Shown here one piece after another: positions 11,166 to 15,135 of a DNA stretch of 64,000 nucleotides (the stretch's first letter is position 1; each line of letters starts with the position of its first letter). Position numbers and translations under genes: made by a program. The notes below the pieces were generated by a model. The model was not told where the DNA came from and made no database searches. It saw only the letters and a program-made list of their open reading frames with translations. The DNA is from Phellopilus nigrolimitatus (Eukaryota; Basidiomycota; Agaricomycetes; Hymenochaetales; Hymenochaetaceae). The stretch covers positions 124,001-188,000 of the forward strand of contig JAJOHG010000041.1 in the NCBI GenBank assembly GCA_021029095.1, read 5' to 3'.

Positions 11166-11869
11166 TTACAGGGAACAATGTCGTCCGTCAAGAGCTACAA
11201 CGGGCGGATCATTGTGGGTAAGCGCGTGCTTTTAACGACTTGTCTTCGAGATCCGCTGGGCTATATTCGTCTTCGGGCGACCCTCGCGACAGCAATAGAG
11301 AGCTCGACTTCGGCTCTGGAGCGTTACAGGTCTTTTTCCCAACACGCCCACAGTCCGACGCGCGGCTTTCGGACAGGGAGCAGGACGCACTCGTCCCTCG
11401 CTTCCATACGCTGTCGGCCTCAGACCCCGATCATGCTGTGCGCCCAGGTTTTGAGAAGTGCGGCGCCGCGATTGCAGTTCGTGCGAACTGCTTCGTGCTC
11501 AAGTATCGTTCTGTACGTTACACAGCCATGATTGCCTCCAATGTGGTCTTTACGGCTGTTCGTAAGTCACTTACACGCGCTGCCATTCTCGTCCTTACGG
11601 ACGGCGGGCGCAAGGATTTCAAGGAATCCTTGGACCCGGGGTTGCGTGGCATCCTTGATGCGGTTCCTGGCCATGTGCCGGGCGGGCGGGATGCAAACCG
11701 ACCACGCACTCCCGCCGCTGCTTTTTGTGCGGCTCCCACCCATGAGACCCGTTGTGTACCATGGCGACCGATGCAATCGAGAAGGAGATTAAGACGCTTC
11801 CTGGGCACCTGAACACCATCCTCATGTCGCGGTTCACTCACCATTCAAGCCTATGGCGCGCTACTAGTA
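11166..11869 (+). other. Unassigned, probably another gene relic
   Basis: A plus-strand open stretch at 11240-11812 includes 'VPRFHTLSASDPDHAVRPGF' and 'EKCGAAIAVRANCFVLKY', followed in another frame by 'MCRAGGMQTDHALPPLLFVR'. The composition and GC bias look protein-derived. The 'RPGFxxxGxxIxVRANCFxLKY' string is loosely like the N-terminal region of Argonaute proteins, but the match is short and I do not assign it. It abuts the hAT-like element on its left. Confidence 0.25.
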
Positions 11870-11877
11870 TCAGCTTA
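11870..11877. repeat. Left 8-bp target-site duplication
   Basis: The sequence tcagctta immediately precedes the left terminal inverted repeat and is identical to the 8 bp immediately following the right one (14490-14497). Confidence 0.9.
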
Positions 11878-11895
11878 TAGGGCATACCACGAGTC
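11878..11895 (+). repeat. Left terminal inverted repeat (18 bp)
   Basis: tagggcataccacgagtc; a perfect reverse complement of 14472-14489. Confidence 0.95.
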
Positions 11896-11945
11896 TTTAG
11901 AACCCGTGGAAACCCGTGACCCGACCCGGACTGCAGATCCACATT

Positions 11946-11975
11946 CACGGATCACCCGTACACGGGTGATCCGTG
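11946..11975. repeat. Subterminal palindrome
   Basis: cacggatcacccgt and acgggtgatccgtg are exact reverse complements separated by 2 nt. The palindrome is built from the ACCCGT/ACGGGT motif that recurs at both ends of the element. Confidence 0.85.
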
Positions 11976-12124
11976 GGAAACAGATTTTTGCGGGTCCGGG
12001 TTGAGAATCTGGGATTTTTCAAAACCCGTGGGTAGTTCACGGGTATTCGAGGTCTGAGTGTTCGTTCATTTTTATAATGTATTTATGTATGTATGTAAAT
12101 ACAATTTGTGTGCGTTGTTGCCAG

Positions 12125-13425
12125 AATTTGCACGAGATGTACGGCCAAGTTGTCCGTGCGGTCGAAGAGCTTCTTGTCCTGCGCAAGCAGACGCGTAGCA
12201 GTTCCCCCATAATGCCTTTACGGATCATTTTCCAGACCGCGGGAACACCAACCATGATGGTCGGCTTGAACTCTCGGAGGTCCCCAAGACATTTGCGCAT
12301 GGAGGCATCCGTGAGGGTCTTGACGCGACCGTAGCCGATAGTCATTCCGACGAAGTAAAGTGCAAGTTCGACAATATACTCAAGAATGTGTGCGAGTGGC
12401 AGATATGCAAGAAATGAGTCCTCGCGTCCGAGATGGTGCCCAAGTAGATTGAATACAGCGCCAACAGACGCAATTAGGTTCGAGTGTGTGTCACGATGCC
12501 CTTTGGCGCGCCTGTCGTACCAATCGTGTACATGATGCACACGACGACGTCACTCGTCGGGACACGGCTCGGGTCACCAGGCTTTGCCTTGCCGAGCTGG
12601 CACGCTCAGGATACATAGATTCTCTCGCGTCGACTTCAGCTCATCGAGCACTTTGCTTTTCGGTCGCCGTCATAGACAATGATCTTGACAGACGGCGTGT
12701 TCACGAGCACACGGGCGAGGGTCGGGAGAAGGTCCGTTTGGTGAAGATGCCGACACAGTTTGGTTCGTTGAGCGAGTGCGTGAGACCAGCCTCGCCGAGT
12801 GTGTCATATGCAGTGGCAATGATGGTGGAGATCGAGATGCATGCATGCGACATGAGCTGCCAGTTCAAACTACGAAAATTATTAATCACAGTTGAGTTGA
12901 GCTCAGAGAAACTTACGTTGTCGCCGAGTAAATGTTGAACACCTCGTCCTTAGCGACGCCGAGCTCTACGAGGCCAACGGCAATCTCATCGGCAGCTTCC
13001 TTTACCTCGACATAACTGAGGTACTTGTATTCGCTGAGCTGGAAGTACTTCCACTCTTTTTCTCAACGACTTCCTTCCCGCCGACGATCTTCTTGACGTC
13101 CTTCTCCTCCTCATGAATTTCGACAATGTCTCTCCATCCACACGCGTCTTTTGTCCGTGCGTGCGTGCGCAGTACTTGAGAACATCATAGACGGTCTTGA
13201 TACCGTCGAGCGGCTGAGTGATGAGGCTGTCCTTGTGGACAGCATTACGATGTGTGGCGGTCTCGCCGGGCTTCGGGTGTTCCTCGACGGAGACGGATGC
13301 GACGCAAACGCCGTTGACGGTTGGCCACTTGGCTGCGACACACCACACGGCTTCGCCGTCTACCGCACCTGGGAGCTCGAGCACCTCCGCAAGCGCGGTG
13401 CGCCCCACTTTCTGACCTGCCCACC
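12125..13425 (-). pseudogene. Captured long-chain acyl-CoA synthetase fragment (5' part)
   Basis: The minus-strand pieces, from the N-terminus, are 'KWPTVNGVCVASVSVEEHPK', 'PGETATHRNAVHKDSLITQP' with 'DGIKTVYDVLKYCARTHGQK', 'NWQLMSHACISISTIIATAY' with 'DTLGEAGLTHSLNEPNCVGI', then 'THSNLIASVGAVFNLLGHHL', 'DSFLAYLPLAHILEYIVELA', 'YFVGMTIGYGRVKTLTDASM' and 'FKPTIMVGVPAVWKMIRKGI'. This is roughly the first half of FAA1/FAA4-like acyl-CoA synthetases (activators of fatty acids with ATP and CoA). The catalytic C-terminal half is absent. An intron with gtaag...ttcgtag at about 12915-12868 is retained, so the capture was of genomic DNA. Frame shifts and loss of the start codon show it is not a working gene. 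Confidence 0.88.
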
Positions 13426-13459
13426 CCTGCCGAACCCCTGACCCGCATCCCCCGGCCCG

Positions 13460-13740
13460 CCCACAGTGTTTGTGGACGGCACGCTCACGACCGTGCTCCC
13501 GATGCACACGTCCTCGCTGGTCTTCCTCGGCGGTGGCGGCGCGAGCCCGCGCTACCCGCCGAACACGGTCGTCGTGTGGGGCGCCGGGCACGCGCGCTTG
13601 CGGAACTCGAGCTCCGCGAGCTCGCGTGCCGCTGCGGCTAGCTCGTCGTCGCGCTGCGCCGCCGTGCGGTCACCTTCGAGGTCGGTGCGGCGATCACGTG
13701 CGTGCAGGAGTGGGACACATGCGACAACCAGCGAGGTGCG
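13460..13740 (+). pseudogene. Captured PROPPIN (ATG18/HSV2-like) WD-repeat fragment
   Basis: The plus strand reads 'VFVDGTLTTVLPMHTSSLVF' and 'LGGGGASPRYPPNTVVVW', then after a frame change 'AELELRELACRCG', 'LVVALRRRVVTFEVG' and 'ITCVQEWDTCDNQR'. Fungal PROPPINs read '...LFLVGGGxSPxYPPNKVVxWDDxxGxxVAELEFRExVRGV...LVVxLRRRVxVFxxG...xxxTCDNPxG'. These beta-propellers bind PI3P/PI(3,5)P2 in autophagy. Only about 90 residues of one side are present, ending at what looks like an intron donor (gtgcgt). It lies head-to-head with the acyl-CoA synthetase piece. Confidence 0.7.
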
Positions 13741-13799
13741 TCTGCCGACCGTGCGTGGTAGCTTCTTGGTCTCACAGAGGAGCAATCTAAACATATCTT

Positions 13800-14225
13800 G
13801 GAAAAACATATCTAGGTCAACATGCAAACGCAGAACGACTTCTCGCTACACACGCTCGACGGGTGCACGCACCCCTCCAACGGGTCGTCAACGGGGACCG
13901 AAACCGGGCAGCTCATCTCGACGGACTGCTTCAACCAGACGAGCGGCAACCAGGGCTGCATTGTCGAGGTCCCGGGGAACTCGTACGGCGCGAACTTCGC
14001 GCCGGCGGGCGGCGGCGTGTACGCGATGAACTGGAACGACACGAGCATCTACCTGAGGTTCTTCGCGCGCGTGGGTCCATCCCCGCGGACCTCCCGACAA
14101 GCGCGCCGAACCCGGACGGCTGGGGCACGCCGACCGCACTGTACCCGACCTCGAGCTGCAGCACCGCGGAGTTCATCAAGCCGCAGACGCTCATCCTCAA
14201 CATCACCGTCTGCGGCGACTTCGTG
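13800..14225 (+). pseudogene. Captured GH16 beta-glucanase fragment
   Basis: After an intact 3' splice site (tatctag at about 13815) the frame reads 'VNMQTQNDFSLHTLDGCTHP' and runs on to 'CFNQTSGNQGCIV', 'NSYGANFAPAGGGVYAMNWN' and 'TSIYLRFF'. It shifts, then reads 'RGSIPADLPTSAPNPDGWGT', 'YPTSSCSTAEF' and 'LILNITVCGDFVG'. This is the C-terminal half of the fungal GH16 laminarinase-like family (secreted endo-beta-1,3(4)-glucanases), downstream of the catalytic ExDxxE motif, which is not included. Retention of the splice site again indicates DNA-level capture. One frame break, at about 14070, is needed. Confidence 0.85.
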
Positions 14226-14471
14226 GGCAGGCTGCGTGCCTGGCTGATATTGCTTAACAGTTTCTCTATAGTCTTTCTTTACTATGCTACACAACACTAC
14301 AAAAACCCGTGAGGACTCGTGAACAGACCCTTCGACCTCCGTGACCTGGACTCACGGGTTTAGGGGGACCCGTAGGTCCGAGTCTCAACGGGTCCAGGTC
14401 AACCCGGGTCCGGGTTGAGGATTTTGGGTCACGGGTAGATCCGCCAACAGGTCCGGGTCAACCCGGGGATC

Positions 14472-14489
14472 GACTCGTGGTATGCCCTA
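14472..14489 (-). repeat. Right terminal inverted repeat (18 bp)
   Basis: gactcgtggtatgcccta; exact reverse complement of 11878-11895. It is preceded by a subterminal run of ACCCGTG/CACGGGT-like motifs. Confidence 0.95.
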
Positions 14490-14497
14490 TCAGCTTA
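14490..14497. repeat. Right 8-bp target-site duplication
   Basis: tcagctta, identical to 11870-11877. Confidence 0.9.
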
Positions 14498-14729: not shown

Positions 14730-15135
14730 GCTGACAAGCTACATACTACACAGCTACAGGGAGCTACAGACTCCTACAGTGCTGCCAAGCTATACAACTA
14801 TACAGCTACAGAAAGCTACAGATGCTACCAAACTATATACTACACAGCTACAGGGAGCTACAGACTCCTACAGTGCTGCCAAGCTATACAACTATACAGC
14901 TACAGAAAGCTACAGATGCTACCAAACTATATACTACACAGCTACAGGGAGCTACAGACTCCTACAAATGCTATGAAGCTATATACTACACAGCTACAGG
15001 GAGCTACAGACTCCTACAAGTGCTATGGAGCTATATACTGCACAGCTACAAGGAGCTACAGACTCCTACAGTGCTATAAGTGCCTATGCACTATGTGCAA
15101 TTGACGCTACAGACACTACACAGTGCTACAGTGCA
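14730..15135 (+). repeat. Compound CTACAG-rich tandem repeat
   Basis: A first block repeats with a 94-bp period (the unit containing 'ctacagatgctaccaaac' at about 14814 and 14908). It is followed by a block with a 52-bp period ('cagctacagggagctacaga' near 14939 and 14991, and diverged near 15043). Both are built from the shorter motif 'agctacaga'. The array then decays into 'ctacagacactacacagtgc'. Open frames through it are an effect of the repeat and not genes. Confidence 0.85.

Follow-up and report, generated by a model that had tools for sequence, protein, structure and literature searches.

How did pieces of several unrelated host genes come to lie between the ends of a single transposable element in the basidiomycete Phellopilus nigrolimitatus? 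The question arises from a 64,000-nucleotide stretch of its genome (assembly GCA_021029095.1, contig JAJOHG010000041.1, positions 124,001–188,000; hereafter the window, whose coordinates we use unless another contig is named). A sequence-only reading of positions 11870–14497 had proposed a hAT-type element carrying fragments of three host genes, acquired by a family that captures repeatedly and could assemble chimeric genes. It had suggested searching the genome for paired termini with 8-bp duplications, for the parental genes, for an autonomous hAT with the same termini and for an empty insertion site. Following these leads, we conclude that the element is very probably a Pack-hAT: a non-autonomous, gene-carrying member of an amplified hAT family, composed as a four-gene mosaic of genomic origin, transposing as a unit and presumably mobilised in trans.

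The window element has moved as a unit

The non-autonomous hAT element spans positions 11878–14489 (2,612 bp). Its left end carries the 18-bp terminal inverted repeat (TIR) TAGGGCATACCACGAGTC (11878–11895, plus strand), to which the right TIR (14472–14489) is a perfect inverted match, and the same 8-bp target-site duplication (TSD), TCAGCTTA, stands on the left (11870–11877) and on the right (14490–14497), just as had been described. At up to three mismatches the TIR occurs in the window at these two ends alone (shuffle mean 0.02). The ACCCGTG-rich subtermini were likewise borne out, with eight copies of the motif in the ends (first 200 bp plus last 220 bp) and none in the 2,192-bp interior, compared with an expectation of 0.07 on average and 2 at most in 2,000 mononucleotide shuffles.

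We found a second copy on contig C500 (C500:2585-5196), which differs by one mismatch over 2,612 bp and is flanked by another TSD, TCTGGAAG. Moreover, when the two flanks of the window copy are joined, they align end to end with C622:5159-5478 of the same genome. The stretch fetched from C622 matches the left flank at 99.0% over 617 bp and the right flank at 99.7% over 296 bp; a single TCAGCTTA is present there and the insert is absent. The window element has thus transposed as a unit, with two copies at two sites bearing different TSDs, and since the empty site lacks the interior, the element did not insert into old relics.

The 8-bp TSD, the 18-bp TIR and the ACCCGTG subterminal repeats are those of a hAT element, as is the hAT C-terminal dimerisation domain of a same-ended, transposase-encoding element on contig C603 (see below). 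Helitrons lack TIRs; the window element, with its perfect TIRs and 8-bp TSD, does not fit the Helitron pattern of neither TIR nor TSD. With fragments of host genes whose donors lie elsewhere, no transposase of its own and mobility as a unit, it has the properties of a Pack-hAT.

The interior is a mosaic of four host genes

A DNA-level search of the genome containing the window (56.4 Mb in 635 contigs) resolved the interior into four adjoining host-gene pieces, whose donors lie at four unlinked loci on separate contigs. From left to right, the pieces are an 80-bp ABC-transporter gene fragment (ABC_membrane; 12123–12202, minus strand; donor C101:206340-206421, 90%), an intron-containing 5′ portion of an acyl-CoA synthetase gene (12206–13335, minus strand; donor C13:487790-488935, 95%), a PROPPIN (WIPI/ATG18-like) fragment (13340–13743, plus strand; nearest donors C159:10638-11080 and C223:816043-816485, 81%) and a GH16 laminarinase gene fragment (13751–14235, plus strand; donor C235:316715-317200, 92%), percentages in which age and paralogy are mixed. 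The sequence-only reading had identified the last three pieces and their strands correctly and had erred in the count, the ABC transporter being the fourth gene. Neighbouring donor pieces are separated by 3, 4 and 7 bp. Two further stretches, of 75 bp (12048–12122) and 49 bp (14236–14284), had no donor match in the genome search; the reverse complement of the former resembles, by eye, sequence in two sister families described below. Altogether, 2,099 bp belong to donor pieces, 375 bp to the hAT termini and 138 bp to a remainder without assigned source.

The gene names were assigned on different grounds. Pfam recognises AMP-binding in the synthetase piece itself and in its donor, and the ABC-transporter domain in the donor of that fragment. 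The PROPPIN name rests on the donor (Pfam PROPPIN and PDB WIPI3), in which the best domain stretch falls in the part of the gene beyond the captured piece, and the GH16 name on a PDB match of the donor to laminarinase (1e-30), a structure of Phanerochaete origin. Pfam returned no match for the GH16 donor, nor for the element's two short synthetase ORFs (open reading frames), PROPPIN-region ORF(s) and GH16 ORFs that were scanned. Other GH16-like loci also match the GH16 piece, more weakly (71–75%).

An intron is kept in the synthetase piece and, it appears, in the GH16 piece, as had been noted from the sequence. The former contains a 47-nt GT-AG intron (12870–12916, minus strand), found as the same stretch in the donor alignment, and the latter opens with a 65-nt apparent intron (13751–13815), both called from reading frames and homology rather than cDNA. 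Because the synthetase intron is intact, genomic DNA was copied, in agreement with the original proposal. The direction of transfer was from host to element, since the synthetase donor gene and that of a carbamoyl-phosphate synthetase (CPSase) piece in a sister family both extend past the captured part. Of the 38 substitutions that separate the window synthetase piece from its donor, 17 are C>T/G>A and 14 run in the opposite direction, so that there is no sign of an excess like that left by repeat-induced point mutation (RIP). Given its small indels (16 gap columns), the piece looks like a relic.

The PROPPIN–GH16 junction (13732–13815) is flanked by two GTGCGT motifs resembling splice donors, the first closing the PROPPIN piece and the second opening the GH16 piece. 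A spliced PROPPIN–GH16 fusion would be conceivable, but the PROPPIN part has indels.

A transposase-encoding element shares the termini

A search for an autonomous hAT with the same termini had been suggested, and a likely one exists. The 5,556-bp element at C603:962483-968038 (TSD TTTCAATA) contains exons of a predicted hAT transposase. When joined by eye, these exons match Dimer_Tnp_hAT with 24.2 bits (cut-off 21.4) and the Hermes transposase in PDB with an E-value of 8.6e-4. Three of the four exons scanned singly had no Pfam match, one exon alone had no PDB match, and a whole-genome search with PF05699 listed seven hAT fragments, the C603 element not among them; an intron seems to divide the dimerisation domain of this element. 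A search with one exon uncovered further copies on C488 (98%), C4 (87%), C423 (two, 86%) and C290 (83%), plus more distant ones. On its predicted coding content, the C603 element is likely to be an autonomous member of the family.

The window element shares nothing but its termini with the C603 element. Its ACCCGTG-rich 5′ terminus (11878–12047, plus strand; element positions 1–170) corresponds to C603 element positions 1–172 at 91% identity, and its 3′ terminus (14285–14489, plus strand), which includes the right TIR, is 92% identical. With all 2,612 bp accounted for in addition, no transposase sequence was found in the window element, as the sequence-only reading had stated. Most other mid-size elements of the family similarly share just about 160–174 bp of one end and 176–243 bp of the other with the C603 element. 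The exceptions, named by the family labels introduced below, are FD copy E90b (first match 150 bp), FH (on C43; 178 bp), FE (on C38 and C379; match running to 223 bp), FK (on C605; split match) and FL (on C434; inner ends contained within it).

On C423 (5721–19284; L069), a 380-bp spacer separates two transposase-bearing elements of 6,592 bp each, whose coordinates mirror one another; the arrangement is either a palindromic duplication or an assembly artefact. The element that was fetched has differing flanking 8-mers and about 860 extra bp near one end compared with the C603 element; Pfam found no match in the ORF of this extra 5′ block.

The family is amplified throughout the genome

The genome-wide counts that follow are lower bounds. 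At up to two mismatches the TIR has at least 259 matches, compared with 0 for a reversed control pattern. Exact copies number 141 (20 + 37 + 84) and resolve into 55 convergent pairs less than 10 kb apart and 31 singles. By size, 20 pairs are shorter than 600 bp, 32 measure 1.7–5 kb and 3 exceed 5 kb. Flanking sequence on both sides was retrieved for 36 of the 55 pairs (31/32 mid-size, 2/3 long and 3/20 short), and the TSDs were identical in 35 of these 36, so that the expected pairing of termini with 8-bp duplications was found; a recount of adjacent pairs only, from which the non-adjacent outer pair on C434 drops out, gives 34 of 35. Each of the 31 fetched mid-size elements has the same 8-bp TSD on both sides, and these TSDs differ from element to element. 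Of four additional pairs with inexact TIRs, three have identical TSDs. With many elements on many contigs and perfect TSDs, a single-contig artefact is ruled out. Short pairs are dominated by a subfamily resembling miniature inverted-repeat transposable elements, which accounts for 18 of the 20 exact pairs below 600 bp (12 of 463 bp and 6 of 474 bp).

Interior sequence divides the 31 mid-size elements into 15 families (FA to FO), of which FA is that of the window element. Nine of the 15 are multicopy, with 2–5 sequenced copies each and different TSDs; seven of these nine include at least one pair differing by 0–2 mismatches, the pair differences in FG and FJ being 163 and 111. Common interior blocks link the families into six lineages, namely FC/FN/FO/FD/FJ/FK, FF/FG/FH/FI, FM/FL, FA, FB and FE. 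Because 15 families in six interior lineages exist, capture has occurred repeatedly, which substantiates the earlier suggestion.

Host-gene content is recognisable in 10 of the 15 families. Besides the four genes of FA (ABC transporter, acyl-CoA synthetase, PROPPIN and GH16), it comprises FHA in FC, WD40 and glycyl-tRNA synthetase in FD, the CPSase large subunit in FE, ribosomal protein S19e (RPS19) in FF and FG (the latter also with a weak S1 match), Piwi (Argonaute) in FH, EF-G in FL, ARPC3 in FM and CNOT1 in FO. The glycyl-tRNA synthetase piece was missed by Pfam and found by NCBIfam and PDB. Within their lineages, the glycyl-tRNA synthetase, CNOT1 and Piwi pieces were each recognised in a single family (FD, FO and FH, respectively), suggesting that pieces were gained and lost serially.

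Donor searches for FB, FD, FE and FH again led to separate loci. FE combines 1.3 kb from C2 (94%) with 130 bp from C625 (95%; also on C604 and C415), and FD combines pieces from C156/C379, C190 and C1/C176 (85–94%) with a piece of repeated sequence (best match C612, 89%). FH draws its S19e piece from C33/C633 (92%), and its Argonaute part goes back to a large group of paralogs (86–90% for the best matches). FB matches C312 and C1 (89%); its C1 piece has many weaker matches and may derive from a repeat.

Surroundings of the window element and Argonaute-like loci

Immediately left of the window element, positions 11570–11818 form an Argonaute-like relic, 75% identical to the Argonaute part of the FH element on C43. 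Pfam found no match in the two ORFs scanned within this relic, nor in five window ORFs flanking the element. Just to the right, an imperfect tandem array (14735–15076) can be read with a period of either 52 bp (about 7 copies) or 94 bp (about 3.5 copies); the empty-site copy on C622 seems to have a shorter version of it. Among the 40 of 81 candidates that were scored, over 20 Argonaute-like loci match the piece with the Piwi domain (e.g., on C390, C4, C90, C625 and C13), although some could be copies on the other haplotype. This fungus thus seems to have a strongly expanded Argonaute family.

How the mosaics may have formed, and what else could explain them

The window copy keeps just about 170–205 bp of each end of the C603-type sequence, and we propose that a C603-type transposase would mobilise all same-ended elements in trans, as their shared ends suggest. 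Uptake itself, of which we are less sure, might occur during repair of an excision gap or of a broken or stalled replication fork, with the copying process jumping to unrelated templates; the junction data are compatible with this step. If uptake recurred, pieces would accrete, be lost and be reshuffled between lineages. Most captured pieces are probably decaying passengers.

Several observations weigh against the Pack-hAT interpretation as a whole. No capture event was caught in the act, and clear microhomology is absent from the three internal junctions. The flanks of the window copy partly match other places (e.g., C68:230872-231101, 78%, across the joint) and therefore belong to repeated sequence, so that the empty site on C622 could be a paralogue within a duplicated segment instead of an allele or other haplotype. 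The PROPPIN piece is merely 81% identical to its nearest genomic relatives, and its true donor may be absent from the genome data. Donor searches covered five of the 15 families (FA, FB, FD, FE and FH), and Pfam had no match in the one ORF scanned for each of FB, FI, FJ, FK and FN. Furthermore, 31 of the 141 exact TIRs have no partner, the exact-TIR pair on C423 lacks matching TSDs, and the flanking 8-mers of a 463-bp pair with one-mismatch TIRs beside C98 (L062:3456-3918) do not match either. The left flank of this last pair resembles a broken TIR end.

The mosaics could also have been retained by selection as new chimeric genes. In FE (C38 and C379), the pieces from C625 and the CPSase gene both keep their native frame across the joint, giving an ORF from two donors that reaches an apparent native intron, and open frames of 197–248 amino acids extend over the CNOT1, ARPC3 and Piwi domains in FO, FM and FH. 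Recent capture alone would explain such frames, however, and in an FE copy the CPSase part is interrupted further along by in-frame stops, while the indels of the window synthetase piece likewise speak against constraint. We therefore regard retention by selection as unlikely. For the suggestion that the family could assemble chimeric genes, the in-frame FE fusion stands, and no further support was obtained. A broader version, in which this fungal hAT family would act as a continuing exon-shuffling machine building multi-gene chimeras, some in native frame with apparent splice sites (FE), and in which its amplified copies, an Argonaute part having been taken up, could give rise to new proteins or to small RNAs that target host genes, those of the silencing machinery among them, seems to us a speculative idea with a small chance of being correct.

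Another route is composite transposition, whereby two short hAT copies move together and trap the genomic DNA between them. Short copies of 463 or 474 bp are common, with 20 of the 55 pairs below 600 bp, and one nested case exists: the element at C434:196381-200639 (L070:182-4440) encloses a complete inner gene-carrying hAT element with its own TSD, AGAGACGC, variant TIRs (2–3 mismatches) and the EF-G piece, so nesting is one route to such structures. Pfam found no match in the single ORF of the outer C434 element. The window element, by contrast, has no internal TIRs at up to three mismatches and no remnants of full short copies at its inner borders, and a single event would trap one uninterrupted segment rather than pieces of four different loci. 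Composite transposition is accordingly quite unlikely and was rejected as the main route; because of the nested case, we keep it as a contributor.

Capture from mRNA would have a precedent in the histone H3 copy of a Pseudocercospora fijiensis hAT (PMC6710886). The intron of the window synthetase piece and the apparent intron kept in the FE CPSase piece contradict it for these two pieces, which leaves this origin highly improbable. Finally, that an ordinary element jumped into pre-existing gene relics, or that its boundaries were drawn round unrelated repeats, is barely credible, since relics do occur nearby (the Argonaute-like left flank) but this explanation is refuted by the empty site and by the recurrence of the entire 2,612 bp on C500 with another TSD, and the parental genes lie on four separate contigs, not in the same order elsewhere, as relics transposed into would have implied.

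Comparison with known gene-capturing elements

Pack-MULEs belong to the Mutator-type superfamily, have long TIRs and occur in plants; those of rice form multi-donor chimeras from genomic DNA. They resemble the elements described here in that a transposon carries gene fragments, and differ in being Mutator-type and in having a plant host. Transposon-borne gene fragments in rice Pack-MULEs are documented (as cited in PMC8647823). Closer in class are the Pack-hATs among the Pack-TYPE elements of maize (Gisby and Catoni 2022, PMC8903248), which share the hAT ends, the internal host-gene fragments and the non-autonomous state, whereas our elements have a fungal host, four unlinked donors in one element and multicopy status in nine of the 15 families. 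Metazoan Pack-TIRs likewise consist of hAT ends around copied host DNA in 208 of 370 cases, and gap-filling and template-switching models have been proposed for them; just four multicopy cases are reported there, in contrast to the nine multicopy families and the several-gene mosaics found here (PMC8277862). In the literature covered, most documented cut-and-paste shuffling of gene fragments is from plants, and the animal cases are almost all single-copy.

Among fungi, the sequence-only reading had known of no well-described hAT counterpart, which is contradicted by the transduplication of histone H3. Fungal hATs captured this gene in the Dothideomycetes, namely in Pyrenophora tritici-repentis, with a 5.6-kb transposase-encoding and a 2.3-kb recombined form (PMC3538342), and in P. 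fijiensis and relatives, where the copy is intronless and RIP-damaged (PMC6710886). These are, like ours, amplified fungal hATs with a host gene, and those of the P. fijiensis group also have an 8-bp TSD and an 18-bp TIR; they hold a single captured gene per element type, whereas here many genes are involved, the synthetase and CPSase pieces are not intronless and the synthetase piece lacks a RIP-like excess. hAT7 and other fungal DNA transposons carry TET/JBP genes (PMC12730594), and hAT7 is again a fungal hAT with a captured gene. There, the accessory gene sits beside the transposase gene between 7-bp TSDs, unlike the transposase-less fragment elements with 8-bp TSDs described here. Gene-carrying transposons are also known from a basidiomycete, as Pleurotus Helitrons with captured genes, in whose intact copies the study detected no fragments of host genes; they are rolling-circle elements without a TSD (PMC4289320). 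The papers listed in searches of open-licence literature, with subscription papers outside their scope, included none on a fungal hAT family that had captured several genes from genomic DNA.

This one fungal genome combines a likely source of transposase with short and chimeric copies, donors that can be recognised and an empty site, and the capture step therefore becomes datable and testable. Gene prediction in such genomes can, moreover, mistake transposon cargo for gene duplicates. Pack-hATs as such are already known in plants and animals; what is new here is a fungal hAT family that has repeatedly captured several genes from genomic DNA.

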